From: a virus
Strand: one strand, 5' to 3'
DNA: 54,916 bases
Virus record (IMG/VR): IMGVR_UViG_3300035698_016290
Coordinates: 1 to 54,916 of that record
Shown: piece by piece, positions 1-42,411 of the stretch
Layout of the letters: each line of letters begins with the position of its first letter
How positions within the stretch are numbered: the stretch's first letter is position 1
Notes under the pieces: generated by a model
The model's input: the letters and a program-made list of their open reading frames with translations, nothing else
Told to the model about the DNA's origin: nothing
Database searches by the model: none
Program-made: the position numbers and the translations under genes

Positions 1-290
1 ATGATAGGAACACCCATTTTATCACCAGGCTTTAATTCTATAGCTGAAATCCATGTCCAGTTTATGCCATCTTTCAACTTAGCCCAAACCTTATGGTCGT
101 GAGTCATATCCATTGGTTCTGAATAGTTGGCAACTTTAATTCTGGTAAGCTCTGCTCTAAATCCGTTATCAACCACTTGGTCTACTTCTACATATTGTCC
201 CTTATTGTCTATACAGATATCTCCAGGTTGTATTTCTGTGACAGGAACAAGACCTTTGTTTGTAGTAACAAGATAATCTTTTGCAAGACA
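1..290 (-). mobile_element. Intein (N-terminal part) inside the actin-like ATPase gene
   Basis: Directly after FSTTK of the ATPase, Cys (codon 288-290) begins a typical intein block A: CLAKDYLVTTNKG followed by VPVTEIQPGD. About 70 residues later MTHDHKVWAK matches block B (T-x-x-H), and ELKPGDKMGVPI resembles the end of the N-terminal Hint region. About 96 residues are visible; the endonuclease part, if any, and the C-terminal His-Asn are beyond base 1. The insertion point is just after the phosphate-2 loop of the ATPase, a conserved active-site region of the kind inteins usually occupy. The family assignment rests on sequence motifs read directly from the translated frame. Confidence 0.85.
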
Positions 291-899
291 CTTTGTAGTT
301 GAGAAGCGGAGTACCGGCTCACCTGACGACATAACGCAGATATTAACCATTCCAGCCCCAAACGACAGGCAAATGCCAGTATAGTCTTCATTTTCTAACT
401 CCGAATAGCAGATAGCTTCTGCTTCGTTAAGAGGCTGAGGTGCCCAGCCAAGCTCACTCAGGTCCTTCTTGAGAACATCTTCGTGAAATCCAGTATTAAA
501 TTCTTCATCATCCTGGTCCATTGGTTCGGCGGGAACTGAATAGACTAGGGTTTCATTTGCAACAGTAGGCTTACCAACCAATTCTGTAAGAATGAATTTG
601 AGAACTCTACGAGCATCTGTCTCGAGTGGGTTAATTACCCCGCGTCTCAGTGGACGCAAAGCTGTTGAGTTTCGTTCGATTGACTTCTCGATGGCATCTT
701 GTCCTACAATTACGTAGGACCCATCTGTGTCTTTGAAGTATGCTAGTCCTTTTAGACCTCTTTCCATCATCTTCCCAGCAATAGCAGTAGCTGGTTTCAT
801 ACGAAAGAATGCATCTCTGAACTCTTTGTATTGTACTCCATCCTCTTCTTCCTGAGCTTTAATCAAGAAGGAGGTGCCTACATCTAACCCGGTACCCAT
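1..899 (-). CDS. Actin-like ATPase (ParM/MreB-type fold), interrupted by an intein; truncated by window edge
   Basis: Reading the minus strand from ATG at 899 gives an open frame to the window edge. Residues 1-203 are the N-extein and look like an actin-superfamily ATPase: GLDVGTS near the N terminus (phosphate-1 loop), RPLRRGVINPLE around residues 80-91, NEAEAICYSEL (the E-x-A-x-x-Y connect-type motif), and LSFGAGMVNICVMSSGEP (phosphate-2 loop). At Cys204 the sequence switches to an intein. Actin-like proteins in phages and plasmids polymerise to move or position DNA; the role here is inferred only. The start has a clear AAGGAG seven bases upstream, overlapping the stop of the preceding membrane-protein gene, so the two are probably co-translated. 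The ATPase C-terminal half lies outside the window. An Hsp70-like or other sugar-kinase-fold ATPase is the main alternative. Confidence 0.78.
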   Translation of the reverse strand, partial: MGTGLDVGTSFLIKAQEEEDGVQYKEFRDAFFRMKPATAIAGKMMERGLKGLAYFKDTDGSYVIVGQDAIEKSIERNSTALRPLRRGVINPLETDARRVLKFILTELVGKPTVANETLVYSVPAEPMDQDDEEFNTGFHEDVLKKDLSELGWAPQPLNEAEAICYSELENEDYTGICLSFGAGMVNICVMSSGEPVLRFSTTKCLAKDYLVTTNKGLVPVTEIQPGDICIDNKGQYVEVDQVVDNGFRAELTRIKVANYSEPMDMTHDHKVWAKLKDGINWTWISAIELKPGDKMGVPI

Positions 900-903
900 A
901 ATT

Positions 904-1308
904 TCACTCCTTATCTTTTCTTCCGGCGAGGAGGCCGGCAAGTCTAGATTTACTCTTTCCAATGGATTTGTCAACGATTTTCTCTCTCGTTGCTGCTCCG
1001 TCGAGCCCGGTAGCTTCGACATTAACATCGATGCGTTGCGGGATGATTGATTCGTCCATACTAACCTCACTCCGTTTTTCGTTTTCATGTCTACCTCTTG
1101 GGAGAGTCTTCAGAGCATCTCTAACTGCTTCTTGTACAGCTTCTTTTATATCAGCACGTAGAAGCTGGACAATATGAGCAGCTAATTCTTCGTAGTCTAA
1201 TGAGGGGGATTCAAAGGTCTTGAATTCTTCGCCTTTATTGTGTTTCATAGCAGTCACCGCAATTCCAGATATAATTAGTATCAGACAGGCAATGCCTATG
1301 AGTTCCAT
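904..1308 (-). CDS. Small single-pass membrane protein next to the actin-like gene
   Basis: A 134-residue protein. Residues 3-20 (IGIACLILIISGIAVTA region) form one strongly hydrophobic segment at the extreme N terminus, followed by a charged, probably helical body with repeated A/L/E/R (about residues 40-75) and a basic C terminus. This is the look of a membrane-anchored protein with its body on one side. The start ATG overlaps the stop of the upstream fibre gene (TAATG). Its own TGA sits inside the ribosome-binding region of the actin-like gene, so the pair is tightly coupled. I do not recognise a family. It could be an adaptor or membrane anchor for the filament, or a lysis accessory such as a spanin or pinholin; no lipobox cysteine is evident after the hydrophobic segment, which argues weakly against an o-spanin. 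Confidence 0.65.
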   Translation of the reverse strand: MELIGIACLILIISGIAVTAMKHNKGEEFKTFESPSLDYEELAAHIVQLLRADIKEAVQEAVRDALKTLPRGRHENEKRSEVSMDESIIPQRIDVNVEATGLDGAATREKIVDKSIGKSKSRLAGLLAGRKDKE

Positions 1309-2309
1309 TAAGCACCTTCTAATTCTGTTACTCGAGCATTAAGCTTCTGTACCTCATTGATAAGTACGGAGATGAGACGACTATAATGTACACCACCTAT
1401 TTGTCCATCCTTATTATTAAAAACCATTTCTGGTCTTACAAGAATAACTTCTTCAGCAATTAGTCCCCACGAGGTAAGGCCAGGGACATCCCACTCAAAC
1501 TCAAAGTTAACAGGACGTAGTTCATAGAGCCAGGAAGTATCTTCCATATCTATAATGTTACGTTTGACACGTTGAGTAGATGAGTCTAATCCAAGCTGTC
1601 CTGTAATTATATTAATATAAAGATCACTAGTTGTAGCAGTACCAGCAGTAGCAGCAGCTAAACAATAAGTCTCTCCAGTGATGGTCATGGTTCCACCAAC
1701 TGTGGCATTACGACCAAGATAAATATCTCGAATCTTATTAGTAGCAGTACCTAGGTCATAAAGAAGAGAAGTGGCAGGAACGTAGTGTCGTGCTACAGCT
1801 GACAAATCAAGATACCGTTCCATTGCAGCAATACTAGTTGCTACCTCTGCCAAACAAGATTCAACATTGGTTGATACAAAAAATGAAGCAGCATCTGCAA
1901 CAGAAACCACATCAGCAGTAAGAGCTGTATTATTGATATCAGCCTGAAGGATATTCTGTGTTTCTGTGATTGTTGTATAGATATCACCAAACTGTTCAAA
2001 AATCGTATTGGGTCTTGACTTAGATGTATTGTAATAGGATGTATTTAATAATGCTGTGGCATTTTGTTTAACATAGAGATTGGCTCCATCTAGACCATTT
2101 GCAAAAGCATCCACATTTACATCATCTACACCATTTGGAATAGAGTCTGTAAGTGGAACAAGACGATTATTCCATTGTGTATTTAGCGTAGTCAGGTCAT
2201 TAGCAATCTCTTCTGTCATATCGTTAATATGGTCAGAGGATGTAGGGCCCCTCTTTCTGGCATTACGTACCTGAAATTGAACCTGAATTTCTTCAATCTT
2301 ATCAGTCAC
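1308..2309 (-). CDS. Tail fibre/spike protein with C-terminal S74-type intramolecular chaperone
   Basis: A 333-residue protein starting at GTG (2307-2309), chosen because GAGGAG lies a normal distance upstream. The last roughly 90 residues match the S74 intramolecular chaperone: SSTQRVKRNI, then ELRPVNFEFEWD, GLIAEEV, RPEMVF, VHYSRLISVLINEVQKLN and a short terminal coiled coil ARVTELE. In this family the domain trimerises beta-stranded fibres and is often cut off by a Ser-Lys dyad; a Ser and a Lys are present at the start of the domain, but cleavage is not proven. The middle part (about 150-240) is low-complexity and beta-rich, with a YDLGTATNKIRDIYLG motif typical of fibre shafts just before this chaperone. 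The N-terminal part probably attaches to the baseplate. Confidence 0.85.
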   Translation of the reverse strand: MTDKIEEIQVQFQVRNARKRGPTSSDHINDMTEEIANDLTTLNTQWNNRLVPLTDSIPNGVDDVNVDAFANGLDGANLYVKQNATALLNTSYYNTSKSRPNTIFEQFGDIYTTITETQNILQADINNTALTADVVSVADAASFFVSTNVESCLAEVATSIAAMERYLDLSAVARHYVPATSLLYDLGTATNKIRDIYLGRNATVGGTMTITGETYCLAAATAGTATTSDLYINIITGQLGLDSSTQRVKRNIIDMEDTSWLYELRPVNFEFEWDVPGLTSWGLIAEEVILVRPEMVFNNKDGQIGGVHYSRLISVLINEVQKLNARVTELEGA

Positions 2310-20310: not shown

Positions 20311-21943
20311 CAGTATTTATACCCACCTGTTCATATTCTTCTTTGAAATAGATGATTTTGTTTTCATAATCAATTAACATTATATCTGTATGTAGCCCAA
20401 TCTCATAGTAGTCAGACCCTGATTTTACCCAAAGTTTTTGGTCTGCATCAAAATCAATACCATCGACAGTACCAGGGACAATGGAACTAAGGTCTAGGAC
20501 TACTAAAGGTTGTTTATAGTTGACAGAAAAGATTTTTCTATACTGTTGTACCTCTCCGTCTACAAAGGTTGCTTCGAAGACTATGAGATACTCTCCGCGC
20601 TGGGTGGTAGTAATAGACACATATTCTTCAATAGACCTGGTTAATTTGACACCATGAGCAATACTTTTTGTAAAATCAGATGTAAATGCTACAGGAGAAC
20701 CGTCTAGGAGACCATATTTGGTTCCATCTGGTTGTTTATACCAGATACGATAAGTAAGAAGTTCCTTGAGAGGACGTGCGTGCCATGGTACGAACTCTAT
20801 GTTTTCACCCAGTACGATACGGCTTTCTTCGGTATCTATATGAATATGGGCTCCAGGTGTAGCGTCACGAAGGTCATCCACACCTGACACCATTATATCT
20901 TCTAGACTATAGCAATAAATCTTATTGGAGTTAGTAGCTACCCAGATACGGTCTGTATAAGGTTGTACTGTCATGTCCACGCCGCTGACAGTGATATTAA
21001 TACCACTAACAGGATTATCCGTTTCGTCCAGCAGTTCCCATCTATCTAATGCTACTTTGTCTGAGAAACCAAGAACAAGTTGTTCCCATTCGTCACTACC
21101 GTATTCTAGTCTCTCAAGAACAGGAATATTATCGTTATGACCAAGGTCCCAGAACTCATCAATCTTCTTTCTGTTTTCAGAGTATTTGATATTCCAGGGT
21201 GAGATATAGGGACCGCCATTAAAGTCGGCAGAGCGTACATCAATTTCAACTTCATCTTCGATATTAAATGTGTGGACTTCTTCAATGAGTTTCCACTCTT
21301 TCATTGTGTGTTGCTTTTGATCCCAAGGGAAAACAAGAGTCTCTTCTTCTTTGGTTCCTTTTCTAGTTGTACCCTTGATGAGAACCAGCCCTCGATGAAT
21401 AAGATTCTCATTGAAAGTCATATACTCGACACCACCAGTTGCTTCAATCCACACCATACCACCAGTGAGATGATGGTCCCATAGACCAGTAACAGTAGTA
21501 TCGAGTCCATCAAAGATGGTTAGTTCATGGTTTACACCACTAATGACCTGCGTCAAACTGACCCTGTCTGGAATAGAGGTATACCAAAATGATTCAACAT
21601 TATTGTCTACAGCGTTCACAACAGTATGCCATGTACTATTGAGAAGCCCACTGACTTCAGGAACAAGAGGACAGTCAGAGATAGGATCAAGACTACAAGA
21701 GTCAAATGCGAAGTCTTCATCTAGTTTGACACGAAATGTCTGATCGATTTCATCTAGGTTAGCTGTAGTGAGATACTGATTATCACGAACACGAATAAGC
21801 TCCTTCTCCATCTTCTCCATGGCTACGGCAGATGCATTGAGAAACTGGTACCCCAGAGACTGGGGGTCTGTGCGAACCCTACTCCATGATGGATAGGTAT
21901 TAACTAGCTCTTGGGTAACGTCACTCTTTTTGATTTTAGTCAC
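20303..21943 (-). CDS. Baseplate wedge-type protein; start displaced by HNH insertion
   Basis: A 546-residue protein. The protein-like sequence begins TKIKKSDVTQELVNTYPSWS. Upstream codons in this frame lie inside the HNH gene and read as unrelated hydrophobic sequence, so I place the start at GTG 21941-21943 (a second GTG is at 21944-21946). This GTG overlaps the HNH stop (GTGACTAA), so translation is probably by coupled reinitiation; no strong Shine-Dalgarno is at ideal spacing. The N-terminal 70 residues are helical (AVAMEKMEKELIRVRDNQYLTT), the rest beta-rich. Following gp25-like and gp6-like genes, it is likely a wedge or baseplate-to-fibre connector. The first ten codons duplicate the start of the HNH gene, showing where the endonuclease was inserted. 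Confidence 0.75.
   Translation of the reverse strand: MTKIKKSDVTQELVNTYPSWSRVRTDPQSLGYQFLNASAVAMEKMEKELIRVRDNQYLTTANLDEIDQTFRVKLDEDFAFDSCSLDPISDCPLVPEVSGLLNSTWHTVVNAVDNNVESFWYTSIPDRVSLTQVISGVNHELTIFDGLDTTVTGLWDHHLTGGMVWIEATGGVEYMTFNENLIHRGLVLIKGTTRKGTKEEETLVFPWDQKQHTMKEWKLIEEVHTFNIEDEVEIDVRSADFNGGPYISPWNIKYSENRKKIDEFWDLGHNDNIPVLERLEYGSDEWEQLVLGFSDKVALDRWELLDETDNPVSGINITVSGVDMTVQPYTDRIWVATNSNKIYCYSLEDIMVSGVDDLRDATPGAHIHIDTEESRIVLGENIEFVPWHARPLKELLTYRIWYKQPDGTKYGLLDGSPVAFTSDFTKSIAHGVKLTRSIEEYVSITTTQRGEYLIVFEATFVDGEVQQYRKIFSVNYKQPLVVLDLSSIVPGTVDGIDFDADQKLWVKSGSDYYEIGLHTDIMLIDYENKIIYFKEEYEQVGINTDG
21906..21931 (-). repeat. 26-bp direct repeat, downstream copy (start of wedge gene)
   Basis: On the minus strand this copy encodes the KKSDVTQEL segment of the wedge protein. 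It matches 22609-22634 at 24 of 26 positions. Both differences are third-position changes that keep the same amino acids (AGT versus AGC, GAC versus GAT). The two copies flank the HNH gene at a distance of 703 bases. Confidence 0.9.
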
Positions 21944-22637
21944 CACCTTTTGAAATATTATCTTCAGCCCAAAGTGGCTGAAGATTAGAATAATGACAAG
22001 CTTCAAGTAGTTGTTTTCTATCAGTTAAATCGAAACTAGATAATGGTTTAATGTGGTCAATGTGCCAACCAGTTCTTCCCCAATTATCCCATGTCATACC
22101 TGATTGAAACTGAGATTCAAGATATTGTTTTAGTTCAGGGATTAAACATCCAAGATCTGTAACTGCAGAACCTGTCTTATATTGTCCTTTAATTGCTCGA
22201 TGTAACCGAGAACGTAAATTACAAGTTATGCGAAAATAGATATCTTTCTTTCTCCTATTATTAGAATATTGCTTTGCCTTATTACTAGTCTGTCTGTAAA
22301 TCTTTTGTGTAGCTAATTTTTTCTTCTTATTGCGAACATAAGATTCTTTGCTAGACTGTAATACATTGCCCCAATTATTCTTTCTCCATGTTTGCTTAAT
22401 TGCTTTAATTTTTTCTCTATTATTGTTCAGGTATTGTTGTCTATGTAACTGTTTTTCTTCAATAGACATTTTAATAAGCAAAGGATGTGTAGACCTATAT
22501 TTTGTACGTTGACACTGTTTACAAGATGACGTATAACCGCTGGTTTTTTGTTTATCTTTACTAAACATTTTCAAAGATTTCTGTTCCTTACATTTAGAAC
22601 ACATCTTCAGCTCTTGGGTAACATCGCTCTTTTTCAT
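21936..22637 (-). CDS. Free-standing HNH homing endonuclease
   Basis: A 233-residue protein. After ten residues borrowed from the neighbouring wedge gene (MKKSDVTQEL) it has a zinc-finger pair CSKCKEQK and CKQC (about 12-42), a long lysine- and asparagine-rich basic linker, and a C-terminal HNH nuclease motif: WHIDHIKPLSSF, then EACHYSNLQPLWAEDNISKG. Such proteins cut a phage lacking the insertion and spread by repair; they usually sit between or inside conserved genes, as here between the gp6-like and next wedge genes. Its ATG overlaps the TAA of the upstream gene (TAATG), a junction it has taken over from the wedge gene. The coding region is visibly more A-rich than the flanks, consistent with transfer. 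Confidence 0.92.
   Translation of the reverse strand: MKKSDVTQELKMCSKCKEQKSLKMFSKDKQKTSGYTSSCKQCQRTKYRSTHPLLIKMSIEEKQLHRQQYLNNNREKIKAIKQTWRKNNWGNVLQSSKESYVRNKKKKLATQKIYRQTSNKAKQYSNNRRKKDIYFRITCNLRSRLHRAIKGQYKTGSAVTDLGCLIPELKQYLESQFQSGMTWDNWGRTGWHIDHIKPLSSFDLTDRKQLLEACHYSNLQPLWAEDNISKGGD
22609..22634 (-). repeat. 26-bp direct repeat, upstream copy (start of HNH gene)
   Basis: Encodes KKSDVTQEL directly after the ATG of the HNH gene. It is the probable original start of the wedge gene now at 20303-21943, left attached to the inserted endonuclease. See the matching copy at 21906-21931. Confidence 0.9.
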
Positions 22638-23857
22638 TATGCAGACCGAAATAGAACCGGAGTGGCTCCTCCATACACATTCTCTATGATAACCCTTTCA
22701 TCAGTTGCAGCAACATAATCATCTAACAAGCTACTACGAACCTTATTGTCTTCTAGTCTAGAAGGACGGAATATAAATATGTTGTCAAATGGCTTGAGAG
22801 TAGTTCCTATTTTCTTGATTAGATCAGAGGTTGTTAGAACCTTTTCAAGCACTTCTTGAAGGATCAACTCTTCCCCAATGTCTAGACTATTCACATAGTT
22901 AGTTACGTTGCCAATAGTATTATCAAGAATACTAGTTTCTTCTTCTGTGTTAAGGACCCTACGGTATTGTAATGTTCCTACAATAGAGAATCCCATTTCA
23001 ACAGGACCACTCACTCGAGGGACCAATCCTCCTGATGTTACTTGAGCTACTGCTACCTGTACTGCAGATATGAGACCTGCTGATACTGTAGGTGTAGTAG
23101 ACTTAATAAGCATATCGAAGGTCCCGATTCCACGATGGAATGGAAGATAAACAATGTCTGCTACGCCAGGGACTGCTAGTGCAGCCAGTCTTAGAGCTGT
23201 GTCATTGGCATACTCTGCTGCTATTACCTGGTTAGCAATTCTGAATCGATAGTTAGTATTAGTTTCAATGTCCCCGCCGTTGGTGATGTCTGCTTCGTTA
23301 GTTACCTTCAGAGTTTCATTCAAATAGTCTGTATATCCATTGAAGTCATGATGACGTAACATGCCTTTGCCAACGTTCTGTGCACTTCCTGTACGTACTG
23401 CTTGTACTGAAACGTATGCTGAACTAGAGGCTGCTGGTAGTACTGTAGAGATTACTACACGGTAACGAATGCCACCGCCACTTGCTGCTGTACTGATGAT
23501 AGTACCAGAGGTCAGAGTGATAGATGCTCCACCGTTGATGTCTCCAAACGTTCCAACATCAACAACCATCTTGAGATTACGGTCTAGAGCAGTGACAGCT
23601 GCTGGTTGCTCACCCAATTTGGGTAGCCCCATCATGTCTCCAATGAACATCAGCCATTTACCGTCAGCACCATCCAAGAATGCCTGTCCAAAGTTTAAAT
23701 CGAATGTACTTGACATCCTTCCTAACTTCTTACTCATGGCTTCTATCAAGGCTCTGGTTTTACTACCAGGCGAACTTCTAGTGATGTTGGTGGCATTTAT
23801 CACATCGTTTAATATGTCACCAAAAATCTGGTCTTTACTTTCAGCAAAAAGTGCCAT
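22637..23857 (-). CDS. Baseplate J / gp6-like wedge protein
   Basis: A 406-residue protein. I chose ATG 23855-23857 over the GTG one codon earlier because AGGAG lies six bases before it. The order of segments fits the baseplate J family (T4 gp6, P2 gpJ, Mu gp47): a helical N terminus with SPGSKTRALIEAMSKKLGRM, a beta domain with GASITLTSGTIIST and YVSVQAVRTGSAQNVGKGML, then NEADITNGGDIETNTNYRFR, and the ferredoxin-like part VPGVADIVYLPFHRGIGTFD. These proteins form the ring of the baseplate wedge. The neighbouring upstream gene is gp25-like, which is the usual order. The HNH gene follows by TAATG overlap. Confidence 0.9.
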   Translation of the reverse strand: MALFAESKDQIFGDILNDVINATNITRSSPGSKTRALIEAMSKKLGRMSSTFDLNFGQAFLDGADGKWLMFIGDMMGLPKLGEQPAAVTALDRNLKMVVDVGTFGDINGGASITLTSGTIISTAASGGGIRYRVVISTVLPAASSSAYVSVQAVRTGSAQNVGKGMLRHHDFNGYTDYLNETLKVTNEADITNGGDIETNTNYRFRIANQVIAAEYANDTALRLAALAVPGVADIVYLPFHRGIGTFDMLIKSTTPTVSAGLISAVQVAVAQVTSGGLVPRVSGPVEMGFSIVGTLQYRRVLNTEEETSILDNTIGNVTNYVNSLDIGEELILQEVLEKVLTTSDLIKKIGTTLKPFDNIFIFRPSRLEDNKVRSSLLDDYVAATDERVIIENVYGGATPVLFRSA

Positions 23858-23866
23858 CACTTACTC

Positions 23867-24340
23867 CTATTTTTGATACTCTCTTTCATACTTGGATGGA
23901 GCCAAAAAGAATACACTATCTTCTAGACTATCGTACAGGAATGTCACAATCAAAGGCTGACCAACAGTCAGCTTGTTAGCAGGTGTAGCCATAGCAGAAA
24001 CTGTAAGTACTACCATTACTTGGGACACTCCTACTGGAACTATTCTAACTGCTAGGTCTGATGGGTAGACAAGGCCAGCAGCAATGATTCTAGACTCGAT
24101 ACGTTCCTTTAGTGCTTGACCTACTTCTCTAGTATTAGGTTCACCTCGAAACTCTGAGATGTTAGTTGCGATATTAGGATGAAGTTCCCAATCATCAAAC
24201 TCAGACCTGAGTATTGTATGTAGCTCGTTCCTGAGAGACTGAATCAGGTCGTCACTGGTATCTCTCAAATCTCCATCGTCTCCAAGAATGTAGTCCCCGT
24301 CCCAGGTCCAAGAACAATCTATGCTGTCATACAATGCCAT
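23867..24340 (-). CDS. gp25-like baseplate wedge protein
   Basis: A 157-residue protein starting MALYDSIDCSW at ATG 24338-24340; GTGAG lies seven bases upstream, while an earlier in-frame start would lie deeper in the endonuclease gene. Length and pattern match the gp25/W/XkdS family: DGDYILGDDGDLRDTSD near residue 15-30, then DLIQSLRNELHTILRSEFDDW, and the helix EVGQALKERIESRI, read directly. In known myoviruses this protein joins the wedge to the sheath-initiating ring. It precedes the gp6-like gene, the typical order. Its TAG stop overlaps the ribosome-binding site of that next gene, and its first codons overlap the end of the GIY-YIG gene. Confidence 0.85.
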   Translation of the reverse strand: MALYDSIDCSWTWDGDYILGDDGDLRDTSDDLIQSLRNELHTILRSEFDDWELHPNIATNISEFRGEPNTREVGQALKERIESRIIAAGLVYPSDLAVRIVPVGVSQVMVVLTVSAMATPANKLTVGQPLIVTFLYDSLEDSVFFLAPSKYEREYQK

Positions 24341-24956
24341 ATGGATTCTCACTATTCAATATATTATAGATTGTTTGTTTAACAACATGGTAATCTTTAG
24401 CAATCTTTATGACAGGAATTCCCATTTTATAATCTGTTCGAATTTCTTGCTTATCTATTTCTAATATCTTTGTATTATGATTTAAATCACCTATTCTTTT
24501 TTTGCCTGCTGCTGATATTTTTTGTCTAGCTTCTTTCGAATGTGTTTTTCCATACATTGAATTTCCTTTGCCCGTTCTTTGCTTAGACCATATTTCCCTA
24601 GTTGAATCAGATGGTTTATAATTTTTCATTCGTTCTTTAGTAGCTAATCCAATTTTAAGTTTTACTTCTGGAAGTTGCGAAGGGTTAAAATCACCTCCAG
24701 GAGTACAATTATATCCATTTTTAAAGGAATCGAATTTTTCTATCCAAAACACCTCTTTGTCGTTTAATTCAGAAATCTCTACAGAATCTATTATTGTCCA
24801 TCTTAATTGATCTTCATATCGTCTAATAGCTCTACAAAAAGGTAATCTATAAGCATTTGATTTTAAATTGAACGCCACACTTAAGTGGCGACGTTTTCTG
24901 TGATCTAAATTAAAAATTGTTTGACCAACATAAACTTTTCCAGATGGAGAAGTCAC
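24327..24956 (-). CDS. GIY-YIG homing endonuclease; start codon problematic
   Basis: The GIY-YIG domain actually begins upstream of 24956: the open frame after the preceding TAA (24984) reads NYGIIYK, then SPSGKVYVGQT, giving GIY and YVG motifs. HRKRRH supplies the catalytic Arg region and DKEVFWIEKFDS the conserved Glu. A NUMOD3 motif (SMYGKTHSKEARQKISAAG) and a C-terminal helix-turn-helix (GIPVIKIAKDYHVVKQTIYN) follow, as in free-standing phage homing nucleases. The first canonical start in frame is GTG at 24954-24956, which would remove the GIY strand. Translation from ATT/ATA or readthrough of the upstream TAA (same frame) would keep it. The 3' end overlaps the gp25-like gene start. A-rich composition agrees with transfer. 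Confidence 0.88.
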   Translation of the reverse strand: MTSPSGKVYVGQTIFNLDHRKRRHLSVAFNLKSNAYRLPFCRAIRRYEDQLRWTIIDSVEISELNDKEVFWIEKFDSFKNGYNCTPGGDFNPSQLPEVKLKIGLATKERMKNYKPSDSTREIWSKQRTGKGNSMYGKTHSKEARQKISAAGKKRIGDLNHNTKILEIDKQEIRTDYKMGIPVIKIAKDYHVVKQTIYNILNSENPYGIV

Positions 24957-25376: not shown

Positions 25377-25859
25377 CTAAAAATTGACTCCACCTGTGAA
25401 TATATCGTGCGGTCCTGTAGCAAGCTCATTGGACCTAGCCTGTTGAGAGCCAGATTTGAACTCCTCTATTGTAACATCCGTGATAACTTCAGCAACACTT
25501 TCTGACCCAGGAGCGTTCTTTCCTCGCCAAAAGACACGTACTCCAAGGCCCTTCCTGAGTGAACCAAAAAGAATGTGAATGATCTTAAGGGGTTGGATGA
25601 GAGGAATCCAGATTCCTTCCTTGGTTCCTGGAGATGTAGCTCCAAGTCTGACAGGTTGCCCACCTCGGCTAGTGATATCAATCTTCACCCTATTGGTCTC
25701 TTCATCCACCTTAGCTATAACACCATAGTCTAATCTCAGTTGTTCGTCGGCAGGTGCACCTGCTTGCTGTCGATTAGTCTTCGCGCTCTTTGCTATCGGA
25801 TTGGTATCAAGAGGCTTTGAACCTTGAACTCCTGCGAACTGTTGTGCTGGTCCTGACAT
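25377..25859 (-). CDS. OB-fold baseplate hub protein (gp5/gpV-N-like)
   Basis: A 160-residue protein; ATG overlaps the stop of the hub/lysin gene (TAATG). After a low-complexity N terminus (about 1-40) it has LDYGVIAKVDEETNRVKIDI, a beta-barrel opening characteristic of phage OB-fold spike domains (read as LDYGVIAKV and NRVKIDI). Then come KEGIWIPLIQP, VRVFWRG and VAEVITDVTIEEF. In contractile tails such OB domains cap or thread the hub trimer. Here the enzyme part is on the adjacent hub polypeptide rather than on this protein. The C-terminal tail, about 25 residues, is flexible. Confidence 0.65.
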   Translation of the reverse strand: MSGPAQQFAGVQGSKPLDTNPIAKSAKTNRQQAGAPADEQLRLDYGVIAKVDEETNRVKIDITSRGGQPVRLGATSPGTKEGIWIPLIQPLKIIHILFGSLRKGLGVRVFWRGKNAPGSESVAEVITDVTIEEFKSGSQQARSNELATGPHDIFTGGVNF

Positions 25860-28800
25860 TATTTTGCATTTCCCTTAAAACTATCTTCCAAGCTACCTTG
25901 AGTCTTCTTGTACCAATTATTAGGTCTCATATCTTCGTACATATCATTCAACAGCAGGCCAGCGCCATCTTCAGCTTCTTTGACCCACTGTTTAATACCT
26001 TGTAAGAAGGTACCACCTGTTCTCTTGATAGGCAATGCGCCGACCATAGCGTTACCATGTTTGACCAGAGGGCTATATCTAAATGGGTGAGCTAGCTGAC
26101 TACGAGTGATGAGCTTCTTAAAGATGAAGCTTCCAAGCAATCCGAATGCACTTTCCCCATTCTGACCTGTACTGTTCGCTGTGCTGTTAAAAAACATATT
26201 GGCAATAGGAGAGAAGGCAAAATCGAACACAATAGCAGCTGTTCCAACTGCACCTGCAGCTATACCAACTGCACCTGCAGCAAGTACAGCTGTCCCTGCT
26301 ACCCCTGCAACTACTGAGCCTGCAGCAAGCGAACCAGCTGCAACCTGCGCAGTAGTGCTACTAAGAGTAGATCCCAGACTCTGTAGGTCCATCTTACGCA
26401 GTGCTGCTTCTGCAACCAAGCCCATCGCATCACCGCTACTCATTGTAGTATGCTGGTTCACGTGGACAACCATGTCTGGTGTAACCTCAGTAACAAATCC
26501 AGTCTGTTGTGAGAATGAATGAACTACTTGTTCAACTTCGATTGGACCATACATGTCAGTATATTCATCAAAGATGTAGACAATGTCGTACGGCTTAATC
26601 TTCGGATTGCCAATCATCACCAGTGAGCCACGATAACTCTCTTTGAGAGAGTAAAAGAGAAGCCCAACAGCATACAACTTAGCCATTTCATACCCTACAC
26701 AATTTGGATACTGAGCAAAGAGTTCCTTCACCTCTTCGTCTTGTACTGCTGCATCACACTTGAGGGTGAACGTTTCCAGGTCACCAAACGTAAGCTGCCT
26801 AGAAGCATCATCCACTTCAGCATTATCGTCTCCATATTGTAATGTAACAGTATTAAAGACATTGCTAGATGACTCGATATTGTTCATCAGGATATGTTGG
26901 GTACTGGTAGCTACATGGTAACTCCTGAATGGTTTAATGAAACCCTGGTCTAGAGCAAATGATTTAACCTTACCCTTCAACCAAAACTCTCTAGCCTTCT
27001 TGATAGAATCATCATCATTACTCTCTAGATCTTTTTTAACATTTTCTGCTTCTGGAGTCTTAGATGGATCAGAAGCCTCCTCTATACTAGACCTATTATT
27101 CTCTAGAGCCTTATTTGAATCTTTAACAAATTGCTTTATTCCATGAATGGCTGTAGTTTCTTTATGCGTTGGATCTCGCGCGAAATATAGTTGGTCAGGT
27201 ACACCAAAGAACATTGTTTGTCTTGGTCCAAAAAGTCCTTGATAAGGTACAGCATAGGCTACGTAGGATGGGTGGCGAAGAGTCATCTCTTGGAAGACAT
27301 GCCAGATGGTCCTCTGATAGAGAGAGTACTTAGCTGTTGAGTCGAAGAGACCAAGGATTCCGCGTCCCGTTGGTGCAAAGATGTTGTCATCCATTGGGGT
27401 TGGATTGAACTTCCAGCTGCTTTTTAATACTCCACGAACTGTATTCTTAGCAGCACCACCTTCCCAACGACCAAAGTGAACGACTTCAGGAAAAGACATA
27501 AGCTGCTCGAGGAGTGGACCAGTACGACCATCATCATCAAGGAATCCACCAAATGTCTTAACCTTGCCATGAGTATTCTGAACTAGTTCGATACCAAAGC
27601 TCTGACAGGTAATCTGTACCAAGTCATCGCATTCAGTAAACTGTACGTCTGTGATTACACCGTTGAAGACAGGCTCTAACTCATCAGGATGATTGTTGTA
27701 CCCTAGACGCAGCTGCATCTGAATACCAGGTTGGAGCATCAGTGACTGAATAGGATTCTCAGCTGTTGTATTAGTCTTCTGAAGATGATGTGCATCCTCT
27801 CCTGACGCACCGCCTTCATAATTTGCAGTCGTGGCTAGATCCTTTTCGTATCCATCAGGGTCGGTTGATGTCTTATTTCTGAATCTTCTGTTGGATAGCA
27901 CACCGGATACATTCGTTAGAGTAATCATCGCTAGATCAGCTGCTATCTTGCGACTTCTAATCACCTTGAGACTTTCCACTGAGCTGTACTGGAAGAAATC
28001 ATCAAAGCTAAACCTTCTTCGCTCACCCATATCTGACTCGATAAAGAAGAGTTTAAAGGTTGGATATGCACGCATGAGAGAATATCCTTGTCCGCTATGC
28101 AGATCCTTCTCGAGCTGCTCAACACTCTTAGTGAACATTGATTCATTGTCAGGGTTAAGACCCTGTTTTGGACCTTGAGATTTATAAGGAGGTCTTGCTG
28201 CATTGACAGACAAGAGACTTCCAAGACCAGGTACCAAGAGTGGGTCAACGGGAGTTCCATTTCTTCTTACTTCAAAATGAAGATGTGGTCCTGTACTACC
28301 TCCAGTAGAACCGATAGAACCAATATTTTGACCCATAGTTATGGGGTATGCGCCGATGGCATGGTAGGCTAAAGAGATCTCTTCAAACTTAGAGTCCCAA
28401 AGCATGTGTGCATATCTTGTAGACACACCATTGCTGTGCTTAATAATAATCCAATTGCCATAACCTTTTGTAGATGGCTCTGAACTCTCTTTGTTGATTC
28501 TTGTAATCTCACCATCAGCTACAGCATAAACAGGTGTCCCAGACTTACCTTTCAAGTCTTGACCTGAGTGTTCTCTCATCTCTTTGTAGATTGGATGGAA
28601 CTTAAGTCCAAAGCCTCGCGAGCTTAACTGTTGACCTGGTGGTCCAGGTGCAACAAAAGTGGGATCTTCATTTGGATCGAATCGTTGTTGAGGCAAGACA
28701 GACGACTCACCTTTCATGGCGATCGAATCAGCATTAAAGAAATGTTGGCACTGACCATGATAATCAGCATCTGGTTTCAAAGAAACATTAGCACCGCGCT

Positions 28801-31603
28801 CACGAAGCGTCATTGCCCCAGGCATTCTTTTAGTGCTTGTTAAGTCACTAACAGATGTTAATTTATTAACAGATTCTGTAGATATCTCTACAAGCGAAAC
28901 AGGCTCTGACATAATAAAACATGTAAGTCCTCTAGAACCTTCTGTTGCCAGAGTGTTAATATGAAATGCCTTATTCGTAGATTCTAATTGCCGTGCTGCA
29001 GCTTCTTCAACACCTTCCTTCTTCCAAAAGGGATCGAACATGGCATCTCTGCTATCAGCAGTAATCTGTTTTGCTAGTTCATCTCCAAGAATATTCTTTT
29101 CATATTGCTCTTTTATCCAAGTAGTTTCTGAAGCTGCTTGATTACCAGACTTTGAATTACCCTGATTCTCAAGAATAATTCTTACAGCTTTGTCTTGAAC
29201 CTTCCAGGGGATAATAGTTTCAATATCATCTGTAAGACGATTGTACATATAGAAGTCAGGCTGGATAAGAAGATCTAGGCTAGCATAACGAAGACCAAAA
29301 TTACCACTGTTCTTAGCATCCTTCAATTCCTTAGCTGCCTGCTTCATAGCATCACTTCCTTCGTTTTCAAGCAAGTTAGCTACTTGTCTAAGAGGAAAGT
29401 CAGGATAGCAGCCAGTTGAGAAGTTGGATGCAGCTTGAGCATCCATGGCACCACGTACTAGTTCAAATTGTTTTAATTCGAGATGGCCTCCATAAATGAT
29501 ACGATCAAGGAACTTACTACTCCAGTTGATCCAGTCTTGCATAAAGTCTTCTATAAATTCATTAATATCAGCTTCAGTTGCATTCTCTTTTATATCAGAG
29601 CCCACTCCCTGAGTAGTAAAAAAGTCTGTTGTTTCAGTGAATCTGATTTGTTTTTTACTCTGCTTTAAAATCTTGTAGATGTCAGCTTGCAATTTGGTTG
29701 TCCCAGGTGAATCATCGTTAGTGAGAGAAAAGAAGCCTTGCATGTTTTTGGAAATATAAGGAGTACTTGTTTGCTGCAATCCCTTAACTAACTTAGCCCA
29801 TAAGAAACCCAGGCGTCGACCGTATTGCAAACATAATGTTTGGAAGTTTACATCTCTAGGATTCGATGTATTTTTACCAGATGGAGTATATACGTAGAAC
29901 CCTGTAATCAACTTGTTTCCTTGTAAGACAATAGGACGATCTTTGCCATCTACTTGATCAAACTCTTCGTTAATTTGTTTATCGATTGCAAGGGACTCTT
30001 CTAGAGTCTCGTTATCCTTATGTGTATTGAGAGATAGAGCAAGAAGAGAATTTTCATAGCTTTGAACTTTTACTTCGTCAGTCCCAATTGTACCCTCATC
30101 GATTACATCGTCATCCAACGTCAAATTTTTGAGCATGATATCTGAGATCATGTTTCTAATGTCTTGAGTTGTAGAGAATGCATTAGCAGGAGTTATTGCC
30201 TCTGCTGTCTTAGTGTCGAGAGGATTGTCGATCAGAGTCAACACAGCCTGATATGTACCTGGTTGTCCAGGAACAGTCTGAGATGAATAGTTGATTGGAA
30301 TGAATTCGTGGAGACCACACAAGTTGACTAGGTCATTCACTACACCCATATTGCGGTGCCCCTGAGGAACCATTCTGAACTTCATTGCCTGGTCTTCAAC
30401 GAGAGAGTAGAGATTGCTCAGAGCCTGGAGAGCCGCTTCACTTGTTGTCATGATTGACAATGTGACTACTGCATCTATGCTACCGATGTGCTGATAGGTT
30501 GGATAAGCATGACCAATCAAGGGTAGCTCTGCGAGAATGTTTTCGAAACTAATGCTCAGTCCAGTGACAATGAGGCCGGTAGCAGACATGTCCAATACCT
30601 GCTTCTTCTCTACCATGATGATATCATTTGATTCAAATTTCGCGTTACTTTGATTAGATGCTGACATGTTAGTCTTATGTCTAATCATACCAGCTGGAGT
30701 TACTACAGGAGAAAAGCCTACAATTTCCGCATACCTAGTAGCAGAGATAGGATCTATAGATTTATCAATAAGAGTTACTATGTCAGATGTTGTTAAAGGT
30801 ATCTGAGAAGTAGTGTCACCAAACAATTCTTCAACAGCAGCATCACCGTCATTCCCCAGTTGCTGCCTCAAACTATATTTGAAAGCATTGGCATCTATCA
30901 TATCAAATGATGGTTTTATCATCTCATCTCTAAGCACACGCAATATTGCAACTTCTTTCTCAAGCTTATTAAATCGTTCCACAGAGCAAGAGGCATACTG
31001 GGTGTAGGACAGCTTGGTATCACTGTTCAGATTTACGTATCCATTAGTTCCACCTGCGTACTGATTGCGTTCCTGCTCTGCCCAATACATGAGCTTCCAG
31101 GGATTGGACTGCCTAGGGTCTTTGACAGAGATAGACGAGAACATGTCCTGCTTGTATGACCAGTCTCTCAGGAATGGGAAGTAGTTGAACCAGGCAAATG
31201 ACATAACAACCTCAACCGTGTTGGTGGAGGTATTGTCCTTGAGGACTTGGAGTTGTCTCAAAGCAAGAGCCATGGACGGGGTGGGTGACCCACTGAGTAC
31301 CATATTGCGGAGATACCGATTCTCAACGTAGCAGAATGGAGTAACTCTGAACTGAGACACTAGGTCTCTGAGCTGATGGAATCCGTTAGCTACACTGTCT
31401 CTTGCTCTTACAACATTGGCTGTAGAGAACGTAGCTCTAACCTGGATTGAAATGGAAGAGAATCCGGAGTTGCTCTTGATGGACGAATTTGTACGTAAGG
31501 TCTGCCACTGATGGACCGTTGACTGTTTTTCCACAGAAATGTGCTGTGGTGGGACGTTGAGAACAACGTCGTTGAGTTGAAAGAAACCAGAATCACTACC
31601 CAT
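25859..31603 (-). CDS. Giant baseplate hub protein fused to M23 endopeptidase (tail lysin)
   Basis: A 1914-residue protein, ATG preceded by AAAGG. Residues 1-200 include ISIQVRATFSTANVVRARDS, typical of a hub/tube-initiating domain. Residues about 990-1125 are a complete M23 metallopeptidase: HSGQD (His1012, Asp1016), GTPVYAVADGEI, YAHM (His1066) and GPHLHFEV (His1107, His1109), the zinc and catalytic set of lysostaphin-like enzymes that cut peptidoglycan cross-bridges. Downstream, QPGIQMQLRLGYN, VFNGVITDVQF and ITCQSFGIEL match the gp27/gpD hub fold. Near residues 1750-1805 an alanine/glycine-zipper hydrophobic region (VAGTAVLAAGAVGIAAGAVG) could insert in membrane. It follows the tape-measure-like genes, as hubs do. 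It probably opens the cell wall during injection. Confidence 0.88.
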   Translation of the reverse strand: MGSDSGFFQLNDVVLNVPPQHISVEKQSTVHQWQTLRTNSSIKSNSGFSSISIQVRATFSTANVVRARDSVANGFHQLRDLVSQFRVTPFCYVENRYLRNMVLSGSPTPSMALALRQLQVLKDNTSTNTVEVVMSFAWFNYFPFLRDWSYKQDMFSSISVKDPRQSNPWKLMYWAEQERNQYAGGTNGYVNLNSDTKLSYTQYASCSVERFNKLEKEVAILRVLRDEMIKPSFDMIDANAFKYSLRQQLGNDGDAAVEELFGDTTSQIPLTTSDIVTLIDKSIDPISATRYAEIVGFSPVVTPAGMIRHKTNMSASNQSNAKFESNDIIMVEKKQVLDMSATGLIVTGLSISFENILAELPLIGHAYPTYQHIGSIDAVVTLSIMTTSEAALQALSNLYSLVEDQAMKFRMVPQGHRNMGVVNDLVNLCGLHEFIPINYSSQTVPGQPGTYQAVLTLIDNPLDTKTAEAITPANAFSTTQDIRNMISDIMLKNLTLDDDVIDEGTIGTDEVKVQSYENSLLALSLNTHKDNETLEESLAIDKQINEEFDQVDGKDRPIVLQGNKLITGFYVYTPSGKNTSNPRDVNFQTLCLQYGRRLGFLWAKLVKGLQQTSTPYISKNMQGFFSLTNDDSPGTTKLQADIYKILKQSKKQIRFTETTDFFTTQGVGSDIKENATEADINEFIEDFMQDWINWSSKFLDRIIYGGHLELKQFELVRGAMDAQAASNFSTGCYPDFPLRQVANLLENEGSDAMKQAAKELKDAKNSGNFGLRYASLDLLIQPDFYMYNRLTDDIETIIPWKVQDKAVRIILENQGNSKSGNQAASETTWIKEQYEKNILGDELAKQITADSRDAMFDPFWKKEGVEEAAARQLESTNKAFHINTLATEGSRGLTCFIMSEPVSLVEISTESVNKLTSVSDLTSTKRMPGAMTLRERGANVSLKPDADYHGQCQHFFNADSIAMKGESSVLPQQRFDPNEDPTFVAPGPPGQQLSSRGFGLKFHPIYKEMREHSGQDLKGKSGTPVYAVADGEITRINKESSEPSTKGYGNWIIIKHSNGVSTRYAHMLWDSKFEEISLAYHAIGAYPITMGQNIGSIGSTGGSTGPHLHFEVRRNGTPVDPLLVPGLGSLLSVNAARPPYKSQGPKQGLNPDNESMFTKSVEQLEKDLHSGQGYSLMRAYPTFKLFFIESDMGERRRFSFDDFFQYSSVESLKVIRSRKIAADLAMITLTNVSGVLSNRRFRNKTSTDPDGYEKDLATTANYEGGASGEDAHHLQKTNTTAENPIQSLMLQPGIQMQLRLGYNNHPDELEPVFNGVITDVQFTECDDLVQITCQSFGIELVQNTHGKVKTFGGFLDDDGRTGPLLEQLMSFPEVVHFGRWEGGAAKNTVRGVLKSSWKFNPTPMDDNIFAPTGRGILGLFDSTAKYSLYQRTIWHVFQEMTLRHPSYVAYAVPYQGLFGPRQTMFFGVPDQLYFARDPTHKETTAIHGIKQFVKDSNKALENNRSSIEEASDPSKTPEAENVKKDLESNDDDSIKKAREFWLKGKVKSFALDQGFIKPFRSYHVATSTQHILMNNIESSSNVFNTVTLQYGDDNAEVDDASRQLTFGDLETFTLKCDAAVQDEEVKELFAQYPNCVGYEMAKLYAVGLLFYSLKESYRGSLVMIGNPKIKPYDIVYIFDEYTDMYGPIEVEQVVHSFSQQTGFVTEVTPDMVVHVNQHTTMSSGDAMGLVAEAALRKMDLQSLGSTLSSTTAQVAAGSLAAGSVVAGVAGTAVLAAGAVGIAAGAVGTAAIVFDFAFSPIANMFFNSTANSTGQNGESAFGLLGSFIFKKLITRSQLAHPFRYSPLVKHGNAMVGALPIKRTGGTFLQGIKQWVKEAEDGAGLLLNDMYEDMRPNNWYKKTQGSLEDSFKGNAK

Positions 31604-41772: not shown

Positions 41773-42411
41773 TCATTTCTCTTTTTTAGAAAAATTTCTA
41801 TTTTTCTGAGCAAGTCTACGAGCTTCGGACCAAGGAATTCCTTTATGAGCTATTGATAATTTTTCTTTACGTTCAATTGAAAATTGGACTCCTTTATTTC
41901 CAAAACCATTCTTATTATTTTTTAATGCGACCGAAATTTTCTGTTTAGTTTTGTCAGAAAGTTTTCTTCCACTTAACCCTTTCGATATTTTCTTTTTTGT
42001 TTCTTTAGAAACTGGTGCTCTACTTTCCCAAGATTTAGACATCCGTTTTTTTGTTTCTTCAGAATGTTTCTTTCCATAAAAAGGATGATTTTTTCCTTTT
42101 CTTGCTTCAGACATTCTTCTTTTAGATTCTTCAGAATGCTCTCTATTTTTATGTCCACCTGAATCTAAATTGTATCCATTTGGAACCAAAGTATTTAGTT
42201 TCTGAATATAATAGCATTCTTGACAATCAAGTTGATCAACTGGGAATTCACCAATGATTTCCCAGACCATTAGTTCTCCATACTTGTTGAGAGCGTTTTT
42301 AAAATAGCCTCGATAACCACCTCTCTTACGTTGTTTGAGAGTTTTAGTGGATTGACCAACATATTGCTTTCCAGAGGGAGAAGTTGCCTTGTAAATAATT
42401 CCTGTTTCCAT
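41773..42411 (-). CDS. GIY-YIG homing endonuclease with NUMOD3 repeats
   Basis: A 212-residue protein starting METGIIYKA at ATG 42409-42411, overlapping the chaperone TAA (TAATG). The GIY-YIG domain occupies residues 1-95: GIIYKA, SGKQYVGQS, KQRKRGGYR and the conserved Glu in CQECYYIQKLN. Several NUMOD3-type DNA-contact motifs follow: EHSEESKRRMSEARKG, HPFYGKKHSEETKKRMS, KLSDKTKQKISVAL and EKLSIAHKGI. This is the usual form of a mobile phage endonuclease. It is related to the one at 24327, with the same SPSG and YVGQ core. It sits between two genes that are normally adjacent and co-translated. Confidence 0.93.
   Translation of the reverse strand: METGIIYKATSPSGKQYVGQSTKTLKQRKRGGYRGYFKNALNKYGELMVWEIIGEFPVDQLDCQECYYIQKLNTLVPNGYNLDSGGHKNREHSEESKRRMSEARKGKNHPFYGKKHSEETKKRMSKSWESRAPVSKETKKKISKGLSGRKLSDKTKQKISVALKNNKNGFGNKGVQFSIERKEKLSIAHKGIPWSEARRLAQKNRNFSKKEK

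Follow-up and report, generated by a model that had tools for sequence, protein, structure and literature searches.

A putative homing intein in a phage gene for a volactin-family actin-like ATPase

Mycobacteriophage inteins occur in terminases and in DNA and nucleotide enzymes, often at ATPase motifs (PMC5050341). Volactin of Haloferax volcanii is a cellular protein with a role in disk-shape formation (PMC10869688). The locus described here, in which an intein interrupts a phage gene of the volactin family, lies at the base 1 end of a linear virus record of 54,916 bases; the window, as used below, denotes this whole stretch of DNA. An Rfam search of the window detected no known RNA family, and no tRNA genes were found in it. 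The reading favored here, to which a probability of roughly 0.9 is assigned, is that a mobile class-1 LAGLIDADG homing intein of ~358 residues resides in the phage volactin gene, that a second contig, G001, carries its missing half, and that the element splices and homes. The relevant features of the window are given below, where a slash within a sequence marks a junction.

291 to 899, minus strand: N-extein, covering residues 1-203 of an actin-like ATPase of the volactin family (Pfam PF25216; identity to the intein-free actin L002)
290 to 291, minus strand: N-extein/intein junction, site b, TTK/SGDWID in the intein-free allele (read-through in L002 and L003; complete allelic inteins)
1 to 290, minus strand: first 96 residues of a class-1-type intein, truncated at the contig end (match to the inteins of L089 and L090)
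87 to 107, minus strand: intein block B, MTHDHKV (TxxH), read from the sequence and aligned with THDHR, TGDHK and TSDHR of allelic inteins
904 to 1308, minus strand: gene directly upstream of the actin gene, 134 residues, with an N-terminal hydrophobic segment and the C-terminal tail SKSRLAGLLAGRKDKE (recurrence of the tail motif)
1308 to 2309, minus strand: tail-fibre or baseplate-type protein (PHROG tail families, best E 9e-11)

The minus-strand frame starts with an ATG at 899 and is open up to the contig end at base 1. Its first 203 residues read, in order, MGTGLDVGTS...NEAEAICYSEL...LSFGAGMVNICV...LRFSTTK. The original prediction had recognized GLDVGTS, LSFGAGMVNICV and NEAEAICYSEL as actin-family motifs, and these are correct in kind and position; the Pfam model Volactin (PF25216) matches residues 1-203 with 116.7 bits against a cutoff of 35 (E 2e-33), far above chance. 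A phmmer search of the PDB with the half protein of the window returned nothing useful. The intein-free actin L002, a protein of 332 residues, is 81% identical to the N-extein of the window and matches the Volactin model over its full length with 221.5 bits (E 2.5e-65), and the uninterrupted actins of L003-L005 are 58% identical to the window half. Related proteins are encoded on no fewer than 551 stretches of viral contigs, and the cellular matches are mainly haloarchaeal volactins with 32-36% identity.

The predicted structure of L002 (pLDDT 92.4, pTM 0.90) has the actin fold, here seen on the 81%-identical protein in place of the window product. Its best Foldseek matches are MreB, MamK and BeeR, with an E of 1e-14 for MreB and a TM-score of 0.70 for MamK, and the first ParM appears at rank 37. 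A profile search of the PDB gave MamK as the nearest solved sequence (E 6e-9); MamK, BeeR and MreB are the best matches and ParM is absent from among them. A comparison with ParM, MreB and Alp had been proposed, of which the actin fold, on the intein-free allele, and the proximity to MreB hold good. Membership in the ParM or Alp group was dropped, as the closest proteins by both sequence and fold are MamK and MreB; the family is volactin.

The intein begins at Cys204 (nucleotides 290-288), which is Cys1 of block A, CLAKDYLVTTNKGLVPVTEIQPGD, and provides the nucleophile of a class-1 intein; the TxxH of block B is likewise present in MTHDHKV. The fragment reads CLAKDYLVTTNKGLVPVTEIQPGD...MTHDHKV...GDKMGVPI to the contig end and aligns over its whole length with the complete inteins of L089 and L090, which occupy the same position in actin (E 9e-23). 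These allelic inteins bear out the central proposal of an intein inside a phage actin-like ATPase gene, with block A at Cys204 and block B at MTHDHKV. Generic Hint models see the 96-residue fragment weakly (Hint_2, E 1e-3, below the cutoff of that model), and a search of viral contigs with this fragment alone gave no matches, the patterns being too specific. The exact insertion point is fixed because L002 reads straight through TK/SGDWIDR; L002 and L003-L005 all read TKSGDWIDRMA uninterrupted across it. The intein had been placed at the phosphate-2 region. It is situated ~20 residues past that loop, at TTK/SGD, while the placement is right for other phage inteins, which do lie inside the loop.

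The window ends at base 1, and therefore blocks C-G were sought, and found, in another contig. The locus L099, the end of the 59,982-base contig G001, begins where the window stops and supplies 262 more intein residues and the C-terminal half of actin, through to the actin stop. The terminal frame of G001 starts with IKEINRKSNFYFG..., reaches the end of the intein at VYDLVMASETHCFSSPGGIVHN/SGDWIDRMAAQSTAQKD and continues into actin. The intein blocks on this contig are FFGRFLGD, GLFESDG, VYDL..THCF and VHN/SGDWIDR. The first two are the LAGLIDADG blocks C and E (Pfam LAGLIDADG_3, E 1.4e-6), and VYDLVMASETHCF...VHN/S comprises blocks F and G, the terminal His-Asn and the +1 residue; all of these are located in G001, outside the window. 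The +1 residue is Ser, which is acceptable for class 1, versus Cys in most allelic site-b inteins. The original prediction had proposed to look beyond the contig end for the remaining intein parts and the C-extein, and this check comes out positive: blocks C and E, a terminal His-Asn, a +1 Ser and the C-terminal half of actin exist in G001, starting where the window stops.

Several comparisons bear on the relation between the two contigs, which were kept unjoined. The 96 residues in the window and the 262 in G001 add up to 358, the length of the allelic intein of L107; the G001 frame starts at the equivalent intein residue, and the sequence GVPIIKYDG...YYFG of L107 spans the break. The two fragments rank known inteins in nearly identical order, with all site-b copies on top. 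The contig ends have four bases (TCAT) in common with the frame kept, although so short an overlap proves little by itself. In the 126-kb relative G004, 29 matches to window proteins fall on one side of the actin gene and 25 matches to G001 proteins on the other, and genes of G001 also match genes on the other side of actin in G002. Apart from one weak match with 23% identity, window and G001 have no proteins in common. The GC content is 0.407 in the window and 0.392 in G001, versus 0.479 and 0.34 in relatives, and the tetranucleotide distance between window and G001 is 107, taken as within-genome, the other comparisons giving 67 and 106 within genomes and 130-226 between genomes. With the total of 358 residues and the agreement in gene order and composition, G001 probably continues the genome of this phage, or of a very near one, as the contig next to the window.

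The window itself holds half of an actin gene and 96 intein residues, and its link to G001 is by position, synteny and composition together with the four-base end overlap, which would also suit a dead or truncated actin, with a degenerate intein or a gene end near base 1, and a G001 that merely comes from a related phage. That account is quite improbable; no stop interrupts the frame before the contig end, Cys1 and TxxH are intact, and the position, size, frame, gene order and composition of G001 all fit. The break inside the intein at a contig end might also suggest a fusion by chance or assembly of an actin fragment with an unrelated Hint domain. Such a chimera is scarcely credible, given that other contigs show the fusion at the identical residue, within a single open frame that covers the intein and the two halves of actin, and it is refuted by independent loci that span the whole intein.

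The favored reading, a homing intein in a phage volactin gene, was followed through viral contigs. A first homologue scan put intein-free genes on top, and DNA patterns of the junctions were used instead (HN followed by GDWID, and HN followed by GAGM); the viral-contig stretches so matched were scored with the family profile. Six of the 43 gave no actin match. Intein-bearing phage actins were thereby found in which an open frame of ~700 residues covers the intein together with the two halves of actin. Dereplication by C-extein leaves 29 distinct phage actins with an intein, of which 19 use site a and 10, counting G001, use site b; this is a lower bound because the patterns require exact motifs. 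The intein of the window is not a one-off, with 29 distinct cases at two sites. Site a, LS/xGAGM, lies in the phosphate-2 loop, and site b, TTK/SGDWID, is the site of the window. Against the MamK sequence, site a falls within the phosphate-2 loop at IVDI/GAGTTD and site b at TK/AGNYVD, in the loop before the next helix. Both loops presumably line the nucleotide site.

At site b, eight loci have a complete intein in a single open frame with the flanking actin. Every complete copy has Cys1 and a terminal His-Asn, although HN was part of the search pattern, and both LAGLIDADG motifs are kept in most complete copies. The precursor model of the site-b locus L101 (pLDDT 83; pTM 0.55, which makes the arrangement of its parts relative to one another uncertain) matches the TliVMA and PI-SceI inteins best and then actins, while phmmer gave no PDB sequence match for the L101 intein. 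We also note that L109 (371-1867) carries a site-a mini-intein of 163 residues without LAGLIDADG motifs, the sole such copy seen. In a different gene, a DnaB-like helicase of L004 (5077-7218), the P-loop looks interrupted (GSGK/CSVRD...) and a later frame ends ...FTNGVLSHN/SHFLVM, suggesting an intein or an intein remnant.

The inteins of L089 and L090 are 100% identical in DNA in exteins of 81% identity. The exteins of L006 are 31-44% identical to those of other site-a hosts, with inteins 54-64% identical to most of them. In a tree of the exteins, intein-free L002 is the partner of the window (SH-aLRT 97). L006 falls within a clade that otherwise lacks inteins, and the distribution of the element requires nine changes of the intein label, as counted on a quick tree with some long branches. 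Homing is indicated because identical inteins occur in diverged actins and intein-bearing genes are nested among intein-free ones. The sporadic, horizontally spread distribution is the pattern of a homing element, whose cutting of DNA we infer.

An intein could instead have been retained for a conditional form of splicing, slowed or triggered in infection by redox, timing or ATP, through which the phage times the formation of actin filaments. Since the two insertion sites align with nucleotide-site loops, the unspliced precursor should be inactive, and conditional splicing is reported for the RadA and DnaB inteins (PMC5790916, PMC7360933). Against such a switch stand the sporadic, horizontally spreading pattern, with inteins in none of the 80 nearest relatives (in a scan with the N-terminal half, which imposes no penalty on a site-b intein), and the retention of endonuclease motifs in most copies, L109 being the only mini-intein seen without them; these are the marks of a selfish element. 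The switch is unlikely, and regulation of actin by splicing is possible but unsupported.

The actin gene stands at the end of a cluster of tail-structure genes, and the stop of its upstream neighbor sits 4 nt ahead of the actin ATG. No recognized domain was detected in the upstream protein of the window. A tail like SxxxKLAxLKKxK ends the upstream-gene protein in 64 of 83 actin loci versus 26 of 313 control proteins, a ratio that overstates the significance because the motif was picked after viewing the data. The shared tail (SxxxKLAxLKKxK or KLKNLKR) recurs on otherwise dissimilar upstream proteins, most of which have an N-terminal hydrophobic segment, and a second phage clade (L007, L114, L120 and L125) has a different tail, IPDFxSGxxxxFGKK. 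In a brief look at the neighbors of haloarchaeal volactins, the same upstream tail was not seen. The upstream protein may be a putative membrane anchor that docks on the filament, a proposal made because it is analogous to adaptor-actin pairs such as AlpA-AlpC (PMC4446434).

Elsewhere in the window, an ORF of 233 residues (21906-22638, minus strand) has zinc-finger-like CxxC pairs and is possibly an HNH-type homing endonuclease, with no match to a Pfam family. A 30-nt direct repeat of 90% identity (21906-21935 and 22609-22638) flanks it and codes for the beginning of the structural gene that comes next, and the ORF seems to have been inserted with duplication of the target start. Two free-standing ORFs between tail genes (24327-24956 and 41773-42411, both minus strand) have NUMOD3 motifs and GIY-YIG-like starts and are probable homing endonucleases. 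A tail protein of 1914 residues (25859-31603, minus strand) contains an embedded M23 peptidase domain.

The mechanism proposed for the favored reading is as follows. The homing intein of ~358 residues, composed of a Hint splicing domain and a LAGLIDADG endonuclease, would invade the volactin gene at the conserved loop after the phosphate-2 hairpin (TTK/SGDWID). The precursor would be translated as a single chain and the intein excised by the ordinary class-1 route through Cys1, the block B His, the terminal His-Asn and Ser+1. Residues 203 and 204 would thereby be joined to give an actin of 330-odd residues, which could then bind ATP and polymerize. Where a co-infecting phage has an intein-free volactin gene, the endonuclease would cut that gene at the same sequence and copy the intein in, and the upstream protein would tether the filament to the membrane. 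For the window phage we infer that splicing takes place, that the endonuclease is active, that the actin binds ATP and forms filaments, and that these are tethered to the membrane. A working actin probably arises in these phages only after protein splicing, and it is sound to expect, as was originally proposed, that filament formation would depend on it. A broader picture, of a widespread volactin cytoskeleton in large tailed phages that is membrane-tethered via the C-terminal tail of the upstream protein and in some phages gated by conditional intein splicing, is doubtful.

The word "actin" is absent from the mycobacteriophage intein survey (PMC5050341) and from the main text of a eukaryotic intein survey (PMC5784728), and a search of the open-access literature turned up no paper that describes an intein in a natural actin. 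The type of intein is already known; actin as its host is new as far as searched, and the actin superfamily thereby joins the known intein hosts within that literature. Insertion at two positions aligned to nucleotide-site loops is in line with the preference of inteins for ATPase active centres. The natural paired alleles of phage actin, with and without the intein, offer a direct way to ask whether splicing switches on a cytoskeleton, and hundreds of phage contigs carry actins of the volactin type, which is known from haloarchaea.

Like the mycobacteriophage inteins (PMC5050341), the present ones are mobile, occupy conserved ATPase motifs, are sporadic and horizontally spread, and in some cases have homing endonucleases. 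This is in contrast to the hosts: the mycobacteriophage inteins sit in P-loop terminases, in helicases and in enzymes acting on DNA or nucleotides, and the present ones in an actin-fold cytoskeletal ATPase. The Hint plus LAGLIDADG fold of the modelled L101 precursor is shared with the TliVMA, PhoVMA and PI-SceI (VMA) inteins, its best structural matches, the hosts of which are instead VMA subunits of V/A-type ATPases. The phage actin, like Haloferax volcanii volactin, matches PF25216 over its full length; the haloarchaeal volactin matches, however, have ~321 codons and no intein, whereas the phage version neighbors tail genes and is preceded by a partner gene. As in AlpC/AlpA of prophage CGP3 and ParM/ParR, a phage or plasmid actin adjoins a small adaptor gene, which is located upstream as in alpAC (PMC4446434). 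AlpA and ParR bind DNA, while the partner protein described here starts, in most of the phages, with a hydrophobic segment.
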